Part shown: one piece after another, positions 7,253 through 15,416 of the stretch
Numbering within the stretch: position 1 is the first letter of the stretch
Layout of the letters: every line of letters begins with the position of its first letter
Assembly: GCA_900315155.1 (NCBI GenBank)
Contig: OMYB01000003.1
Span: forward strand, 124,001 to 188,000
DNA from: an uncultured Selenomonadales bacterium
Lineage (GTDB): Bacteria; Bacillota; Negativicutes; Selenomonadales; Selenomonadaceae
DNA: 64,000 bases
Direction of reading: 5' to 3'
Position numbers and translations under genes: made by a program
Notes under the pieces: generated by a model
Database searches by the model: none
What the model was told of the DNA's origin: nothing
The model's input: only the letters and a program-made list of their open reading frames with translations

Positions 7253-7328
<76 letters not shown>

Positions 7329-7364
7329 GATGGAAATCTGTTGTTTTGCTTAACAACATAGATT

Positions 7365-7393
7365 ATTATACAGGCTATCGGCGAATCTGTCAA
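7365..7393 (-). promoter_or_regulatory. Sigma-70/A promoter of tRNA-Ala
   Basis: On the minus strand TTGACA (7393-7388) and TATAAT (7370-7365) are separated by 17 bases, a consensus vegetative promoter about 37 bases upstream of the tRNA. It lies just after the stop of the P-type ATPase gene. Confidence 0.9.
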
Positions 7394-7409: not shown

Positions 7410-9503
7410 TCAGCTGCGGCGGCGCAGGCGCGGCTGAGCCGCACGCAGGATGCGGCAGCTGTTGAGCACGACGGCGAGCGTAGCCGTGTTGTGGATGACG
7501 GCCGCCCAGAGCGGATTGATCTTGCCGAGGGCGCCGAGCATCATGGCGGCTGAATTAACCAGAATCGTCGCGCGGAAATTCTGATGGACGAGCTGCATGG
7601 TCTTGCGGCCGAGCTGCAGCGCCTCCATGATGCGCATGGGTTCCTCGCTGTGGATCGTCACGGCCGAGGACTCCGCGGCGATATCGGTCTGCCGCCCGCC
7701 AAGCGAGACACCGACGTCGGCAAAGGCCAGGGCCGGTGCGTCATTGATGCCGTCGCCGACCATCATGACCGTCCCGCGCTGCTTGAGCTTGTTGACGTAG
7801 TAGGATTTGTCCTCCGGCAGGATTTCCGCATGATAGGAGTCGATATCCATATCGCGCGCCACCTCGGCGGCCACGCTCTTGCTGTCGCCCGTGAGCATGA
7901 CGATTTCGTCGATGCCGTAGCGGCGCATCTGATTCAGCGTCTTTTTCATCTGCGGGCGCACGGGATCCTCGATGCCGATCACGCCGAGCATCTGCTTGTC
8001 GCGGGCCACATAGAGCAGGTTGCGCCCCTTGATGCCCTCGAGCAGGCTCTCATCGACGTGGATGTCGTTCTCGCGCAGGAACTTCTGCGAGCCGACGCGG
8101 ATCGTACCGCCTTTATAGCCCTCGAAATCCGGGACCTCGGCGAGCATGCCGCGCGCGACGACCGTCTTCGAGGATTTGTGCTGCGGTTCCGTCCATTTCT
8201 GCGCCTTGACGTATTTCTTGATTGCCACGGCCAGCGGATGGACGGAATGTTCCTCCGCGGACGCCGCGAGCAGGATCATTTCCTTGTCCTCGACGCCTGG
8301 CGCCGTGCGGATAAAGGAGATCTGCGGGATGCCGATGGTCAGCGTACCCGTCTTGTCCAGGACGACGGTATCGGTCTCGGCCAGCGCCTCGATGTAGTTG
8401 CCGCCCTTGACGAGGATGCCCCGCTTCGCCGCCGCGCTGATGGCTGCGGAGATGGCCGTAGCCGTCGAGAGCTTCAGCCCGCACGAGAAGTCAATGAACA
8501 GCAGGTTCAACACGCGCTGCCAGTCGCGGGTCGCCCCGTAGACGATGCCGGCCGCGATAAAGGAGACCGGTACGAGGAAGTTCGCCATCTGATCGGCAAA
8601 ATTCTGCACCGGCGCTTTGCGGTTCTGCGCCTCTTCGACGAGGTGGACGATGTGCGCGAGGCTCGTATCCTGGCCGACCTTCTCGACGCGGATCACGAGC
8701 TCACCGGCCTCGACGACAGAGCCCGCGTAGACGGGCATGCCCTTCGACTTCATGGCCGGGTTCGACTCGCCCGTGATGGAGGCCTGATTGATCGCAGCAT
8801 CGCCCGAGATCACGCGGCCATCGACGACGATTTTTTCGCCAGTATGCGCGGAAATCGTATCGCCGGCTTTGACCTGCTCCACGGGGACCTGACGCTCGAC
8901 GCCGCCCTCGACGAGCCAGACATAGCGCTGATCGAGCGAGAGCAGACCGGAGATCTGCGTACGCGCGCGCTCTGCGGCATAGCTCGTGAGCATTTCGGCC
9001 ACATTGGACAGCGTGAGCAGCGTGAGGCTGGACTCCGGTTTGCCCGCGAGCACCGAGGCGATCACGGCCGTGGCCGTCAGCGTATCGGCATTGGGCTGAT
9101 GCTTCTGCACGAGCCCCTGCACACCGTTCTGGATGAACTTGCGCGCGATGCCGAACACAACGAGGCTGCGGACGATCTTCAGCGCCGCAAACGTCTGCGG
9201 TGACGTATGCTGCAGGAGCTTCATGCCCGCGAAGCTGACGAGGGAGATGACGGCGTCGCGGCGGTACTCTGCCAGGCGGTCCGCCGGCGTAACCGCGGCT
9301 TCCTTCGCACGCTGCACGGCGGCGATGGCGAGCTGCTGGATCGGCACGATCGGCAGGCTGTGGCGATACCAGATATGGACGCGTTTCTCCTCCACCGTAA
9401 CGGCTGTGACCATGCGGTAACGACGGATCTGCGCCGCGAGCAACGCGCGGTCTTCACGCGGCAGCGGCGCGGCGAGATGGATAAAATATTGCCCGTACAT
9501 CAT
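7410..9503 (-). CDS. P1B-type metal ATPase with atypical TM4 motif (FezB-like candidate)
   Basis: A 697-residue P-type ATPase. It has the actuator motif TGES (about residue 243), phosphorylation motif DKTGTLT (about 382), the P1B-type HP dipeptide in SVHPLAVAI (about 421) and the hinge GDGINDAP (about 581). Transmembrane pairs flank these, so it moves a transition metal across the inner membrane. TM4 reads FSCGLKLSTATA instead of CPC, CPH or SPC, and no N-terminal CxxC metal-binding domain is present; the last TM has HNTATLAVVLNS. These features point away from Cu and Zn/Cd pumps toward the poorly studied branch that includes ferrosome FezB (P1B-6). Last gene of a tight operon behind two HMA2-type genes. 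Substrate iron is inferred from context only. Confidence 0.85.
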   Translation of the reverse strand: MMYGQYFIHLAAPLPREDRALLAAQIRRYRMVTAVTVEEKRVHIWYRHSLPIVPIQQLAIAAVQRAKEAAVTPADRLAEYRRDAVISLVSFAGMKLLQHTSPQTFAALKIVRSLVVFGIARKFIQNGVQGLVQKHQPNADTLTATAVIASVLAGKPESSLTLLTLSNVAEMLTSYAAERARTQISGLLSLDQRYVWLVEGGVERQVPVEQVKAGDTISAHTGEKIVVDGRVISGDAAINQASITGESNPAMKSKGMPVYAGSVVEAGELVIRVEKVGQDTSLAHIVHLVEEAQNRKAPVQNFADQMANFLVPVSFIAAGIVYGATRDWQRVLNLLFIDFSCGLKLSTATAISAAISAAAKRGILVKGGNYIEALAETDTVVLDKTGTLTIGIPQISFIRTAPGVEDKEMILLAASAEEHSVHPLAVAIKKYVKAQKWTEPQHKSSKTVVARGMLAEVPDFEGYKGGTIRVGSQKFLRENDIHVDESLLEGIKGRNLLYVARDKQMLGVIGIEDPVRPQMKKTLNQMRRYGIDEIVMLTGDSKSVAAEVARDMDIDSYHAEILPEDKSYYVNKLKQRGTVMMVGDGINDAPALAFADVGVSLGGRQTDIAAESSAVTIHSEEPMRIMEALQLGRKTMQLVHQNFRATILVNSAAMMLGALGKINPLWAAVIHNTATLAVVLNSCRILRAAQPRLRRRS

Positions 9504-9504
9504 A

Positions 9505-10143
9505 TTATTTTCGCCATCCTCTCATGAGCGAAACAGCCCACCAGAAAAGCTGCGGGCCCGTCGGGTAGTCACGATACAGGATCACCCTGCGGAGGCCGCG
9601 GATGGCGAACCAGAGCGCAAAGGCAACGTTCATATCCAGAGCGCCATTGGTCTGCGCTTTCAGCCAGGCGGAACCGCGCTGGCAGGTATCGACGATACTG
9701 CGTGAGAGTGCACCGACCGCAGCCTCACGCGGCGTCTTGCTCCAGTCGGCATCCGCAGACTGTGCTTTCTGCTGTGCGCAGGCGGCTTTCGGGGCAAAGA
9801 AGACCAGGTCGAGCCACTTCCCGAGTGCCTCGGCACGCCGCTCCGCTGCGGGGTCGTACGTCAGCAGGACGCTCCCCGTCGCGGGATTCGCCTGCACGCA
9901 CTCGATAAAAGACAGCCGCTGAAGCTGAGCCGTCAGCAAATCCGCCTGTGTCTGCGTCAGATGCGCAGCGCGGTAGCGGCGGCGTCCCGGCACGGCGAGC
10001 ACGAGGCTCAGGGGAGCCTGCTGCGCCTTTTGCGCACGCTGGGCACGGGGCGCCTGTGCCGGTGCCGCAGGACCACCTGTCAGGAACTGATGGATGCTCT
10101 TGCCGATCGCTGCTCCCATCATAAAACCGGATACGTAGGACAT
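9505..10143 (-). CDS. HMA2-type domain membrane protein
   Basis: 212 residues. The N-terminus (VSGFMMGAAIGKSIHQFL) is glycine-rich and may insert in or pack on a membrane. An Ala/Gln-rich linker leads to a ferredoxin-like HMA2 domain starting AVPGRRRYRAAHL, which carries the PGRxR signature and lacks CxxC. Another hydrophobic stretch lies near the C-terminus (MNVAFALWFAIRGLRRVIL). One base separates its stop region from the ATPase start and the upstream gene ends one base before it, so translation is probably coupled. AAGGAGG stands seven bases before the ATG. In ferrosome clusters HMA2-type accessory proteins accompany the ATPase; an exact FezA or FezC assignment cannot be made by eye. Confidence 0.75.
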   Translation of the reverse strand: MSYVSGFMMGAAIGKSIHQFLTGGPAAPAQAPRAQRAQKAQQAPLSLVLAVPGRRRYRAAHLTQTQADLLTAQLQRLSFIECVQANPATGSVLLTYDPAAERRAEALGKWLDLVFFAPKAACAQQKAQSADADWSKTPREAAVGALSRSIVDTCQRGSAWLKAQTNGALDMNVAFALWFAIRGLRRVILYRDYPTGPQLFWWAVSLMRGWRK

Positions 10144-10144
10144 G

Positions 10145-10444
10145 TCATTTCCTCCTTACATGGGTCATGATATACTGTTCCACCTTGGCGAGCTCCGGAT
10201 TGCGGCGCAGCGTCTCCGGTACATACTGGATGAGAATGGATCCCGTGATCGTGCTCGTCTTGACGCTATCGATCTCCGGGAATGCCCCCAGCTGCTCCTG
10301 CACCTGACGCTCGAGCGCGGCATTGCCGACCAGGTTTCGGCTGTAGAGACGCACGCGTCCCGGCAGGTATGCGTGAATATCGACAGAACGGATGAACAGG
10401 TCCAGCGTGTTCGTCGGAACCTGTAATTTATCCAAGAGGCTCAC
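10145..10444 (-). CDS. Small HMA2-domain protein
   Basis: A 99-residue soluble protein that is almost entirely one HMA2-like ferredoxin fold. The diagnostic segment is YLPGRVRLYSRNLVGN, followed by a typical second strand and helix (SIDSV-type turn, then TGSILIQYVP). There is no CxxC, so metal binding, if any, is not by the classic HMA pair. The start is GTG with AGGAGG seven bases upstream. It lies between the membrane-protein gene, from which a terminator-like hairpin separates it, and the 212-residue HMA2 protein. It probably acts as a partner or scaffold for the P-type ATPase. Confidence 0.75.
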   Translation of the reverse strand: MSLLDKLQVPTNTLDLFIRSVDIHAYLPGRVRLYSRNLVGNAALERQVQEQLGAFPEIDSVKTSTITGSILIQYVPETLRRNPELAKVEQYIMTHVRRK

Positions 10445-10467
10445 TCTATTTCCTCCTCTGATTTCAG

Positions 10468-10493
10468 AAAAAGGGGACTGCCACGCAGTCCCC
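10468..10493 (-). terminator. Intrinsic terminator or attenuator inside the ATPase operon
   Basis: On the minus strand GGGGACTGC, a three-base loop and GCAGTCCCC are followed by five Ts. It lies after the first small gene and before the HMA2 gene, so only part of the transcripts would reach the ATPase and the first gene would be expressed more strongly. Confidence 0.8.
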
Positions 10494-10514
10494 CACCGGG
10501 AAAGATCGGTTCAA

Positions 10515-10721
10515 TCAGCCTTTCTTGGCTTCCTGAGCAGCAATCAGATCCTCGAGCTCCTCTTTCTGGCGCTGAAGCTCAGCGACAGAAAGCTCCGTCG
10601 TCGGAGCAGCCGGCTGCATGGCAGCCATCTGCTGCTCACGCTCCTGCATGAAGCGATAACCGAAAATACCGGCAACAGCACCGACTGCAAGGCCGATCCA
10701 AAAATCCGTCTTCTGGAACAT
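10515..10721 (-). CDS. Small single-pass membrane protein heading the ATPase operon
   Basis: 68 residues. One hydrophobic helix (FWIGLAVGAVAGIFGYRF, about residues 7-24) is followed by Met-rich, Ala/Pro-rich and then charged coiled-coil sequence (ELSVAELQRQKEELEDLI). I choose the ATG at 10721 because AGGAGG is nine bases upstream. An in-frame start at 10748 would coincide with the predicted transcription start and the ATG at 10730 sits directly on the ribosome site. First gene behind the consensus promoter at 10757-10785. Function not recognised; the TM plus coiled-coil design could suit an organelle or complex scaffold. Confidence 0.7.
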   Translation of the reverse strand: MFQKTDFWIGLAVGAVAGIFGYRFMQEREQQMAAMQPAAPTTELSVAELQRQKEELEDLIAAQEAKKG

Positions 10722-10756
10722 GTAACTCATCCTCCTTACTTCTTTCAATATAGTTT

Positions 10757-10785
10757 ATATTATCATAAATGGGAATCACTGTCAA
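10757..10785 (-). promoter_or_regulatory. Consensus promoter of the ATPase/HMA2 operon
   Basis: On the minus strand TTGACA (10785-10780), a 17-base spacer and TATAAT-like TAATAT (10762-10757) predict initiation near 10750. The -10 overlaps TGATAAT, identical to one half of a canonical Fur 7-1-7 site, but the other half matches poorly. Iron control is thus only a suggestion. Confidence 0.75.
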
Positions 10786-10819: not shown

Positions 10820-12472
10820 TTACCGAATCTCTGTATCATAGTCTTTGCCGTGCACCACGCGATGGCGCGCCGCATCGAATGCCGCGTTGATGACGCTTTT
10901 GGCCGGGTTGTACTCCGGCGTGCGGATATCGAGGAGGTCCAGCAGCGTGTGGATCATGTCGTCCGTCATGTACGGGCGGTTCACGGCCGCGCAGATGACC
11001 TGCCATTTCTCTGGATGATGCGCGCGGTAGGCTGGCGATGCCCAGAAAATCAGCGGCACGTCGCAGGTCGGCCGCGTCGGGTTCTCCTCCACGTGACCGG
11101 CAAAGCTGCTGCCGTTATCGTAGAGATCCTCGCCGTGGTCCGGCAGATAGATGACGATCGCCTCTTTATCCTGGAACTTCCCCATGATGGAGCTCACGAC
11201 GAAATCGTTATAGTAGATCGCATTGGCATACTGCGCGACCTCGAGCCTACGGTCATCCGGCAGCGCATCCTGCGGGGCAGGCACGTCGGCCGGCGTGAAC
11301 TTCGAAAAGAGATAGGGATAGCGCATATAGTACTGCCCATGCGTCCCCATGAGGTGCACGACGTAGAAATTTTTCTCCGCGGGATTTTCCAGTGCTTCAT
11401 CGACGAGCGGGAAAAGCATCTCATCGAGACTGCCGTTATCCTCATGCGACTCACGCAGCTGCGCAAACCGGGTCACATCGGCCCGGCGTGCAAAGAGCTG
11501 GGCCACGTTGCCCCATATCCCCGAGCTCTCCTGATTCGACAGCCAGTACGTGCGGTACCCCGCGGCCTTCATGACATCGATGAGGTTGTTGTACGTATAC
11601 CAGGGCTGCTCCGCCTCGAGGTCCGAAAACGTGAACAGACGGCGCAGCACGGCCACGGTCGCCGACGCCGGTGCGATCGCATCGCGGTATACGGCGATAT
11701 CCCCTTTCGCCGCGAGCTCGTCGAGGTTCGGGGTATTGTCCAGCGGATAGCCGTAGAGATGCATGCGGTCGCGTGTCGTGGACTCCCCGAGGATGAACAC
11801 GACGTAGGGCACCTCGCTCCCATTTTCCGTGATCGTCACGTCAGCGGACGCTTCCTGCTCCAGTTCCTCATAGGCGCGGATATTCGTGATGGCCGTATCG
11901 GATGCGAGAGCCACGCGCACGACGGGGATATCGAGGTTATCGTTGACGACAAAGGAATGATACTGCGTCCAGAGCCCCCATCCGCAAGCGCCGCATAGGA
12001 TCGCGAGCAGGACGGGAATCCACCGCGGCATAGAAAACGGCGGCTGCTGCAGATGCACATCCGCCCGATGGGCGCACCGCCAGCCAGCGGCACCGACCAC
12101 AGCCAGCAGGATGAGCAGCAGTGCTCCTTTCCAGCCCACGTACATGCGCAGATACTCGACGGCCTCGTGCGGATTCGTCTGCAGGATGGCCGTCACGATG
12201 CCCGCGCCGACGGGAGCCTGATACACCCATATGGTAAAGGCCTCCAGTCCGAACAGCAGGCCGCACACGAGGAAGGACAGGCCAATCAAAACCTTTCTCG
12301 TCCTCCGCCACGGCACAGCATCCAGCAGCCACCCGTAAAGCAGAGAACCAGCCAGCACAAAAAGGAAATCCACGCCCAGCACGCCGAGCTGCGTCGTCTG
12401 GAACATGTGGATATTCAGCCAGGCAATGGGCAGGAAATTCAGCAGGAACAGTGGGATCCCCCATCGGAACAT
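10820..12472 (-). CDS. Phosphoethanolamine transferase (EptA/CptA-like sulfatase fold)
   Basis: About 550 residues. Five hydrophobic segments fill the first 190 residues, then a periplasmic alkaline-phosphatase-fold domain begins. The catalytic nucleophile region is GESTTRDRMHLYGY followed by DNTPNLD, and the metal-site motifs YLPDHGEDLYD and GHVEEN come later, as in lipid A or LPS-core phosphoethanolamine transferases. It moves phosphoethanolamine from phosphatidylethanolamine to LPS at the outer face of the inner membrane, altering charge and peptide resistance. I prefer the ATG at 12472, six bases after GAGGTG. It fits a diderm organism. The acceptor sugar or lipid cannot be read from sequence, and a related phosphoglycerol transferase is less likely. 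Confidence 0.87.
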   Translation of the reverse strand: MFRWGIPLFLLNFLPIAWLNIHMFQTTQLGVLGVDFLFVLAGSLLYGWLLDAVPWRRTRKVLIGLSFLVCGLLFGLEAFTIWVYQAPVGAGIVTAILQTNPHEAVEYLRMYVGWKGALLLILLAVVGAAGWRCAHRADVHLQQPPFSMPRWIPVLLAILCGACGWGLWTQYHSFVVNDNLDIPVVRVALASDTAITNIRAYEELEQEASADVTITENGSEVPYVVFILGESTTRDRMHLYGYPLDNTPNLDELAAKGDIAVYRDAIAPASATVAVLRRLFTFSDLEAEQPWYTYNNLIDVMKAAGYRTYWLSNQESSGIWGNVAQLFARRADVTRFAQLRESHEDNGSLDEMLFPLVDEALENPAEKNFYVVHLMGTHGQYYMRYPYLFSKFTPADVPAPQDALPDDRRLEVAQYANAIYYNDFVVSSIMGKFQDKEAIVIYLPDHGEDLYDNGSSFAGHVEENPTRPTCDVPLIFWASPAYRAHHPEKWQVICAAVNRPYMTDDMIHTLLDLLDIRTPEYNPAKSVINAAFDAARHRVVHGKDYDTEIR

Positions 12473-12494
12473 CGGTAACACCTCATCGGATGAA

Positions 12495-13328: not shown

Positions 13329-15416
13329 TTACTGCAGATAATGCGATTGTTTTCCGTAGCTAGTGACATACGCAGCCTCGCGGGCACGCGTCAGAGCTAC
13401 ATAGAGCAGACACCTCTCACTGGTGTCTGCTTCTTTTTTTGCCATTGGATCACTGACACTAACAACCGCCTTCAACGGGATCACGTTCTCATTTGCTCCT
13501 GCCACAAAGATATAACGGAATTCCAATCCCTTGACGCGGTGCATCGTCGCAAAACGGATGCCCGGCAGTGCACGGTCATCATCCTTCTTCAGCTCATAGC
13601 ATCGGAACCCACGGTCTGTGAGTGCATGCAGATAGTTGTCCAGCATATTATGCGTGCGTGCCGTGATGCAGATATCCTGCAACGGGACGCCAGCCTTCTG
13701 CATTTCCCCGATCTTATCGACGATAAAATCGATCTCCTCATTGGCAGTCCGGAAATTCTGTACGGTTGGATTGCTACCATGTGTCAGCGATTGACATGCA
13801 TCCTTCGTCAGCGTATCGCCATCCAGGTCATCAAAAGCAATCCCCTTCAGGACCGCCATAGCGAATGCACGCGTCTCTTCCGTTGTACGATAGTTGATAT
13901 GGAGGATGCTGCTGCGCCCCTGGATCCTGATGCCGCACTGTTTCAGTACGGTTTTATTGCGATAGATACGCTGATGCGAGTCACCAACGATAAAGATATC
14001 ATTCGGATGCTCCTCGCCAGCGATACTGCGGATGAGCTTCATCGCAGCCGGACTGAAATCCTGGCCTTCATCCACGATAATGTAAGGATAGAGCGTGCGA
14101 TTTTCCTTCTGGAGGAGCACGGCGCATTCATCCATAGCCCACTGGATATCGCGCCATCCGCGCTTGCGCATTTCCTGCTGATAGGCCTCAAATACCTTCC
14201 ACACAGCAGCTCGTTTCCTGCGGTCCAAAGATGTGCCACGTCCGTTGCGGGAGCAGCGGGCATAGAGCGGAGCCGTCATCGCATGCTGTGGAATGACGAC
14301 GCGATCCCATTCTTCCATATAGAACGATGCTGGCAGGCCCAGCTCATCAGCCAGTGCACCGGCAATAGCATCTTCCCAGACCTTATCCAGCTCCTTCTGC
14401 TGGTACTGCACCATTGCTCCATATCCTTCATTCCGCATATAGCGAGCCACCCAAGCATCCAGGTTGATGACGTCAATGTGACTGAGTTCCTCCGTGGTGC
14501 AGATCTTCTTCAGATTCTCCTGGATATCCGTGGCCAGGTTTGCCGTATACGTCGTGAACAGCAGTTTATCCCGCCCTGAAAGCTTCCCAGCCAGCCGCTT
14601 TGCCCGATGCATCGCTACGACCGTCTTGCCCGTGCCAGCGCCGCCCATCACGCGGGCAGAACCGGAATAGTCCTTAGTAACGGCTGCGCGCTGCGTCGGA
14701 TGCAGGAATACACGCCACTTATCCAGTGGCCACTCGAGGATATTACGCATCTCCTCCTCGCCCTCGACAACATGGAAAAATCTCTGATTGGAAGAAGTCT
14801 CCAATGCGTCCCGAAGATTCTCACTGCTATGTCTTTCCTTCTCCGAATGGCTATAATCCAAGACCTCACTGAACGGGATTCCCTCAGAAAGCCAAAACAG
14901 GCTCTCATACACATCCGGTGAAAGATCGCTTTGGAACTTTTTCAGATCCTCCTTCGAAATAAACGAGCGAATCAACGGCATTTGCTCCTCCGGCACACCG
15001 AGCCGCAGCATATCACTATCTGAAATCGACTGGAACAGTCCTGGTGCAGTGACCGTCTCGACCTCTTCCTGTACCGTATAAACCTGAATGGCTCCCGTAT
15101 AGGGATTCACCTTGCAGCTTTTGCGGCGGGCCCAGGCATAGGCCTCATCATGATGATCGACCCAGAGCAGGACATATACCCCCTGATTATCGCGCACAAC
15201 GATGCCGCGATAGGTATCATTGATACGTACCGACCATACCTTATCATCAATCTCGCTGGCAATTTTCTCATAGTGGATGGCCGATGAGGCTGGATTGGCG
15301 CGGAACTTGATCAGGAAAGCCTGCACGTGGCGCTGTTCCTGCTTGGGCAATTGAATAAACGAAGTCAAAAATTTCTCCCCGAATGCTACTTTCGGTATTG
15401 CTGTTGCTTCCATCAT
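13329..15416 (-). CDS. RelE-like/UvrD-family helicase fusion, last gene of the defence operon
   Basis: 695 residues. Residues 5-105 resemble the RelE/ParE toxin fold: an N-terminal helical hairpin, KVWSVRINDTYRGIVV and VYVLLWVDHHDEAYAW in the positions of the RelE sheet. From about residue 240 it is a superfamily 1 helicase with Walker A GGAGTGKTV (about 260), Walker B VDEGQDFSP (about 447), NYRTTEETR, MHRVKGLEF and VALTRAR. The ATG overlaps the stop of the giant upstream helicase gene as ATGA, with GGAGG inside that gene, so the two are translationally coupled. It occupies the slot where DISARM carries drmC (phospholipase D fold). Whether the RelE-like part still cuts RNA is unknown. Confidence 0.85.
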   Translation of the reverse strand: MMEATAIPKVAFGEKFLTSFIQLPKQEQRHVQAFLIKFRANPASSAIHYEKIASEIDDKVWSVRINDTYRGIVVRDNQGVYVLLWVDHHDEAYAWARRKSCKVNPYTGAIQVYTVQEEVETVTAPGLFQSISDSDMLRLGVPEEQMPLIRSFISKEDLKKFQSDLSPDVYESLFWLSEGIPFSEVLDYSHSEKERHSSENLRDALETSSNQRFFHVVEGEEEMRNILEWPLDKWRVFLHPTQRAAVTKDYSGSARVMGGAGTGKTVVAMHRAKRLAGKLSGRDKLLFTTYTANLATDIQENLKKICTTEELSHIDVINLDAWVARYMRNEGYGAMVQYQQKELDKVWEDAIAGALADELGLPASFYMEEWDRVVIPQHAMTAPLYARCSRNGRGTSLDRRKRAAVWKVFEAYQQEMRKRGWRDIQWAMDECAVLLQKENRTLYPYIIVDEGQDFSPAAMKLIRSIAGEEHPNDIFIVGDSHQRIYRNKTVLKQCGIRIQGRSSILHINYRTTEETRAFAMAVLKGIAFDDLDGDTLTKDACQSLTHGSNPTVQNFRTANEEIDFIVDKIGEMQKAGVPLQDICITARTHNMLDNYLHALTDRGFRCYELKKDDDRALPGIRFATMHRVKGLEFRYIFVAGANENVIPLKAVVSVSDPMAKKEADTSERCLLYVALTRAREAAYVTSYGKQSHYLQ

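Follow-up and report, generated by a model that had tools for sequence, protein, structure and literature searches.

The window analyzed here is a stretch of 64,000 nucleotides from an uncultured Selenomonadales bacterium (contig OMYB01000003.1, positions 124,001 to 188,000 of the forward strand), and all positions below refer to it. It carries a minus-strand operon of four genes around a P1B ATPase, which is probably related to the fez operons responsible for ferrosomes, granules of iron and phosphorus with a bounding membrane. An initial annotation had described this region (7410-10785) as a P1B ATPase devoid of CxxC and CPC, grouped with two HMA_2 proteins carrying PGRxR and a small transmembrane (TM)/coiled-coil protein. 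This gene set is indeed present, and the four genes (span 7410 to 10721) were all found where that annotation had placed them (Table 1). The genes had also been called a tight minus-strand array; their order and strand agree with this description, yet the array is interrupted by a terminator-like hairpin after the small gene.

Table 1. Genes and predicted expression signals of the operon.
Feature	Position	Strand	Remarks
Sigma-70-like promoter TTGACA-17-TAATAT upstream of gene 1	10757..10785	minus	10/12 consensus bases, TG before second hexamer; consensus match only
Gene 1, 68-aa TM + coiled-coil protein	10515..10721	minus	one GxxxG-type TM helix, then coiled coil ending LEDLIA
Intrinsic terminator-like hairpin, then T's, between genes 1 and 2	10472..10494	minus	
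99-aa HMA_2 protein with PGRVR	10145..10444	minus	GTG start; PF19991 E 7.1e-13
212-aa HMA_2 protein with PGRRR, conserved C-terminal part	9505..10143	minus	PF19991 E 7.7e-19, two stretches
697-aa P1B ATPase	7410..9503	minus	TM4 DFSCGLKLSTA, TM6 HN; FezB-like N-terminal domain without GRxR

The small gene begins with an ATG at 10721 preceded by AAGGAGG, and the ATPase start sits 1 nt past the stop of the 212-aa HMA_2 gene. PGRxR occurs once in each HMA_2 protein (residue 28 in the small one, residue 52 in the large one). The ATPase has only two cysteines (341 in TM4 and 683 in TM6), contains neither CxxC nor CPC, and retains intact DKTGT and GDGxND motifs. Since the 68-aa protein contains no cysteine or histidine, it lacks a PacL-type metal-binding tail; its ZapG-like Pfam match falls below the cut-off.

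Orthologs of the ATPase were identified in 32 of 60 genomes, its own included, with search identities of at least 56% followed by a gap down to 37%. With family membership assigned by kinship, carriers account for 28 of the 37 genomes belonging to the window's family and, among the other genomes of the class, for 4 of 23. Two orthologs on short contigs were left out, so that the window and 29 of the 31 other orthologs formed a set of 30 loci, and all four genes are co-located in every one of them, at 54-81% ATPase identity. In three loci from other families (L117, L119 and L121) the small gene comes after the ATPase gene, with the module otherwise together. Because co-location in 30/30 loci includes these rearranged ones, the small protein belongs to the module. 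Two loci (L095 and L104) have a further gene just downstream of the ATPase, whose product is 33-37% identical to the small HMA_2 protein.

Phylogeny of the ATPase had been proposed as a check on the ferrosome assignment, and a tree of 41 ATPase rows (support pairs given as x/y) groups it with FezB and the P1B-6 type, though in a sister sub-clade. All 26 ATPases with SC[GA] in TM4, including C. difficile FezB and the window's ATPase, fall on one side of a branch against the CPC types (99/95). One sub-clade on this side (100/99) comprises C. difficile, other clostridia, Deinococcus, Vibrio and Arcobacter; its sister (100/99) comprises the window's group, Fusobacterium and Priestia. Joining the window's group to the CtpC-like CPC ATPases was rejected (approximately unbiased test, p-AU 0.019). 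The motifs point in the same direction: TM4 reads DFSCGLKLS in the window and DFSCALKLS in C. difficile, and TM6 contains IHN. HN in TM6 has been described as a P1B6 feature and DUF6110 proteins as typical companions of P1B6 ATPases (available text of PMC9374683). HN alone is not specific, as some CPC ATPases carry it too. These findings support the assignment of the window's ATPase to the P1B-6 side, together with C. difficile FezB and the other SC[GA] ATPases. The two C. difficile genomes used here were located through their 16S pattern; each has a single DUF6110 gene, immediately upstream of the ATPase that best matches the window's, so this pair fits fezA-fezB. In another family of the window's class, two loci (L122 and L123) encode CtpC-like ATPases with CPC plus HN; the one in L122 carries PGRIR at its N-terminus and has PacL-like small TM proteins encoded upstream.

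Profile comparisons using hhalign matched the N-terminal domain of FezB with the small and the large HMA_2 protein (98% each) as well as with the N-terminus of the window's ATPase (93%, score 40.9 against a shuffled maximum of 11.9). Controls for the FezB domain were clean, whereas the control for the comparison of small with large HMA_2 protein was not, as one column-shuffle beat the real score (131 vs 96). GRxR is absent from the N-terminal domain of all 30 window-type ATPases and present in 12 of 12 FezB-type, Priestia and Fusobacterium ATPases. PGRxR, on the other hand, is kept by 29 of 30 orthologs of the small HMA_2 protein and by 24 of 30 of the large one, whose first 105 residues were scanned. 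This distribution suggests that the task of GRxR may have passed from the ATPase to the separate HMA_2 proteins.

The 68-aa protein shows a profile match of 75% to YtxH-like proteins encoded in the P1B-6 clusters of Vibrio and Arcobacter (0/60 shuffles as high), compared with 1.4% to PacL. It is best called a proposed scaffold, a functional counterpart standing in place of FezA/YtxH-type proteins. Its gene is followed by a terminator-like hairpin at 22 of 27 loci, where dinucleotide shuffles would give 0.9, and the stem sequences differ between loci. The three rearranged loci are not part of this count, which was 10/27 with a first, strict version of the counter and 22/27 with the final one allowing sub-stems and longer loops. 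Most transcripts may end at this hairpin, which would yield more scaffold than pump.

Several iron-related genes recur around the operon, within about 6 kb on each side as far as contigs allow. FeoB was found in 7 of 30 loci, flavodoxin with DUF3793 in 7 and FecCD with a binding protein in 2, for a union of 13/30; the same search around 20 CopA-type P1B loci of these genomes returned none (Fisher p 0.0006, although loci and rows share ancestry, so that the p-values given here are optimistic). Pfam confirmed all nine neighbors tested (9/9). The flanks of the window's own operon contain no FeoB, flavodoxin/DUF3793 or FecCD. Positions and orientations of the neighbors vary between loci, which suggests repeated association of the operon with iron genes. 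The clostridial locus L208 has a Pfam-confirmed ferritin gene just upstream of its DUF6110/P1B-6 pair. Together, these contexts make iron the likely substrate.

Classical ferritin (PF00210, E below 1e-30) was detected in none of the 28 operon carriers of the window's family and in 3 of its 9 non-carriers, a difference that is significant at the strict cut-off only (p 0.011); when Dps-like proteins are counted too, the numbers become 3/28 and 3/9 (p 0.14). Three relatives have PF00210 matches of E-16 to E-23, Dps-like by eye, and the window's own genome has only weak PF00210 matches, rubrerythrin-like by eye. Iron in this family could be stored chiefly through the operon.

Comparison with known systems shows both shared and differing parts. 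The C. difficile fezAB pair (CD630_05910-05920, described in PMC11651100) shares the SC[GA]-TM4/HN-TM6 ATPase clade, an adjoining gene for a small TM/helical partner and an HMA_2-type N-terminal domain. It differs in having a DUF6110 FezA, GRxR in the ATPase itself and no separate HMA_2 proteins seen adjoining; in the window, two HMA_2 proteins are present, DUF6110 is missing and the ATPase lacks GRxR. The six-gene fez operon of Rhodopseudomonas palustris (RPA2333-2338, described in PMC12016538) was compared by description, and the nearest sequences analyzed are clusters of Vibrio sp. THAF190c and Arcobacter sp. AZ-2023. These share with the window a separate PGRxR HMA_2-like protein, the YtxH-like TM/coiled-coil protein noted above and an SCA-type ATPase; they differ by extra TM proteins, a DUF2202 gene (in Arcobacter) and ATPases that belong to the FezB sub-clade rather than the window's. 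A P1B-6 cluster with DUF2202, PGRxR and YtxH-like genes is located on an Arcobacter sp. plasmid (L213, 2636-7110), with TonB receptors and a ChaN-like lipoprotein as neighbors. Clusters of Fusobacterium vincentii and Priestia megaterium have ATPases of the window's own sub-clade and several HMA_2 genes plus a TM/coiled-coil gene around the ATPase gene. They differ in an ATPase that retains GRxR and in an extra gene downstream of it, which Pfam assigns to HMA_2 in Priestia and which looks HMA_2-like by eye in Fusobacterium. The Priestia megaterium cluster, an HMA_2/P1B cluster of five genes, resides on a plasmid (L088, 2820-6670).

We favor, with moderate confidence, the interpretation of this operon as a fez-like, P1B-6 iron-storage module of a sister type, and consider organelle formation in the window's lineage plausible. 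A number of observations weigh against this interpretation. The window's ATPase is only 33% identical to C. difficile FezB, no higher than to CPC ATPases, and its placement consequently rests on tree and motifs. No ferrosome is known from any member of the window's sub-clade. The small protein matches C. difficile FezA and its DUF6110 kin at 11%, a value equaled in 1 of 60 shuffles, and descent of the small protein from a common ancestor with FezA is therefore unsupported. The profile search for FezA and FezC suggested with the initial annotation came out negative: no DUF6110 protein above the cut-off was found in any of the 60 relatives' genomes, and no FezC-like (DUF4405-like cytochrome) gene in the cluster, the two above-cut-off DUF4405 genes of the genome being on other contigs. 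FezC is not known to be part of the C. difficile operon either. Outside the window's family, all four operon carriers (4/4) have ferritin, and within it 6 of 9 operon-free members also lack ferritin, so operon and ferritin are not a strict either/or.

Iron-dependent regulation by Fur is a further weak point. FezA and FezB are needed for the ferrosomes of C. difficile, and both are repressed by Fur (as stated in PMC12574912). Our scan for Fur boxes used the E. coli 19-mer consensus, with shuffled sequences for comparison, and gave a best match of 13/19 in the window's promoter and a mean of 12.84 over 25 loci against 11.03 in shuffles. Among the two feoB genes of the same genome, one has no site of at least 14/19 and the other has one site of 14. 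These signals are too weak to claim Fur regulation of the operon.

The main rival interpretation, which we judge unlikely, is a plasma-membrane efflux platform like CtpC/PacL1 of Mycobacterium, in which the small protein would gather the ATPase into foci and the pump would export Fe(II) or a different metal from the cell, with no organelle formed. The overall build is alike, as in both systems a P1B ATPase with an HN motif in TM6 is accompanied by a small scaffold made of a TM segment and a helical part (PMC9374683), and PacL and DUF6110/FezA are themselves related (profile match 92%; described in PMC9374683 and PMC13043812). The CtpC/PacL system differs, however, in the CPC of TM4 and the metal-binding tail on PacL, and CtpC-like ATPases form another clade. 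Neither of these hallmarks, CPC in TM4 or the C-terminal metal-binding motif, occurs in the window's proteins, where TM4 has SCG. Rejection of the CtpC-like grouping and the minimal profile match of the small protein to PacL also argue against an efflux platform, and the recurrent neighbors are genes of uptake and starvation. Another possibility is that the pump serves a different metal such as Mn, Zn or Co, the HMA_2 proteins being metallochaperones and the proximity of FeoB incidental. Sequence cannot give the substrate with certainty, and metal specificity could differ because TM4 has SCG here and SCA in C. difficile FezB. Yet the contrast between 13/30 loci and 0/20 control P1B loci with iron-gene neighbors, and the varying position and orientation of these neighbors, make such a pump improbable. 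It is hardly conceivable that the four genes are chance neighbors or a decaying remnant: a terminator-like hairpin does split gene 1 from genes 2-4, but the genes stay together in all 30 loci, even where gene 1 has moved downstream of the ATPase, and the catalytic motifs of the ATPase are intact.

A fez-like storage module of this kind might work as follows. Iron limitation would switch on the operon along with the import of Fe(II). Produced in excess through the internal terminator, the small TM/coiled-coil protein would assemble in the membrane as a scaffold and gather the ATPase. At the membrane, the two PGRxR HMA_2 proteins may bind iron or iron-phosphate or hand it over, a role that the N-terminal domain of the ATPase would have abandoned. 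As expected from the P1B-6 family, the ATPase would then remove Fe(II) from the cytosol, pumping it most likely into compartments or invaginations of the membrane for ferrosome-like storage. A more far-reaching proposal, which we consider rather doubtful, is that the operon represents a second, independently shaped class of ferrosomes. It would be the family's main iron store in place of ferritin, with its iron-handling PGRxR domains moved from the ATPase to two dedicated proteins and a high, terminator-set ratio of scaffold to pump that shapes the organelle.

Work on ferrosomes has so far covered few bacteria. If a largely ferritin-free family has a conserved sister form, this would show how those bacteria store iron, and the simpler four-gene model would make the parts needed for a compartment (ATPase, PGRxR domains and TM/coiled-coil scaffold) testable. 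Our literature search returned no paper joining ferrosomes with Selenomonas, although the system may have been described before in papers outside this search. The word "ferrosome" appeared in none of the matches listed for Veillonella, Negativicutes, Selenomonadaceae, Megasphaera or DUF6110, and a search pairing "HMA2 domain" with "P-type ATPase" found nothing. FezB homologues have reportedly been described in many phyla, and the novelty of extending ferrosomes to this lineage is therefore unsure.

Other genes near the operon were also annotated. Just past the ATPase stop lies a tRNA-Ala(GGC) gene (7253-7393, minus strand) with a perfect 12/12 sigma-70-like promoter, and no terminator-like site for the operon was found between the two. 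Directly upstream of the operon, a phosphoethanolamine transferase (10820-12481, minus strand) is CptA/EptA-like at scores below the curated NCBIfam cut-offs. A UvrD-type helicase (13329-15416, minus strand) has an N-terminal extension that appears RelE/ParE-like by eye; its best PADLOC model is NERD+UvrD (E 1.5e-33), and it also has many GajB matches, all of which lie over the helicase part.

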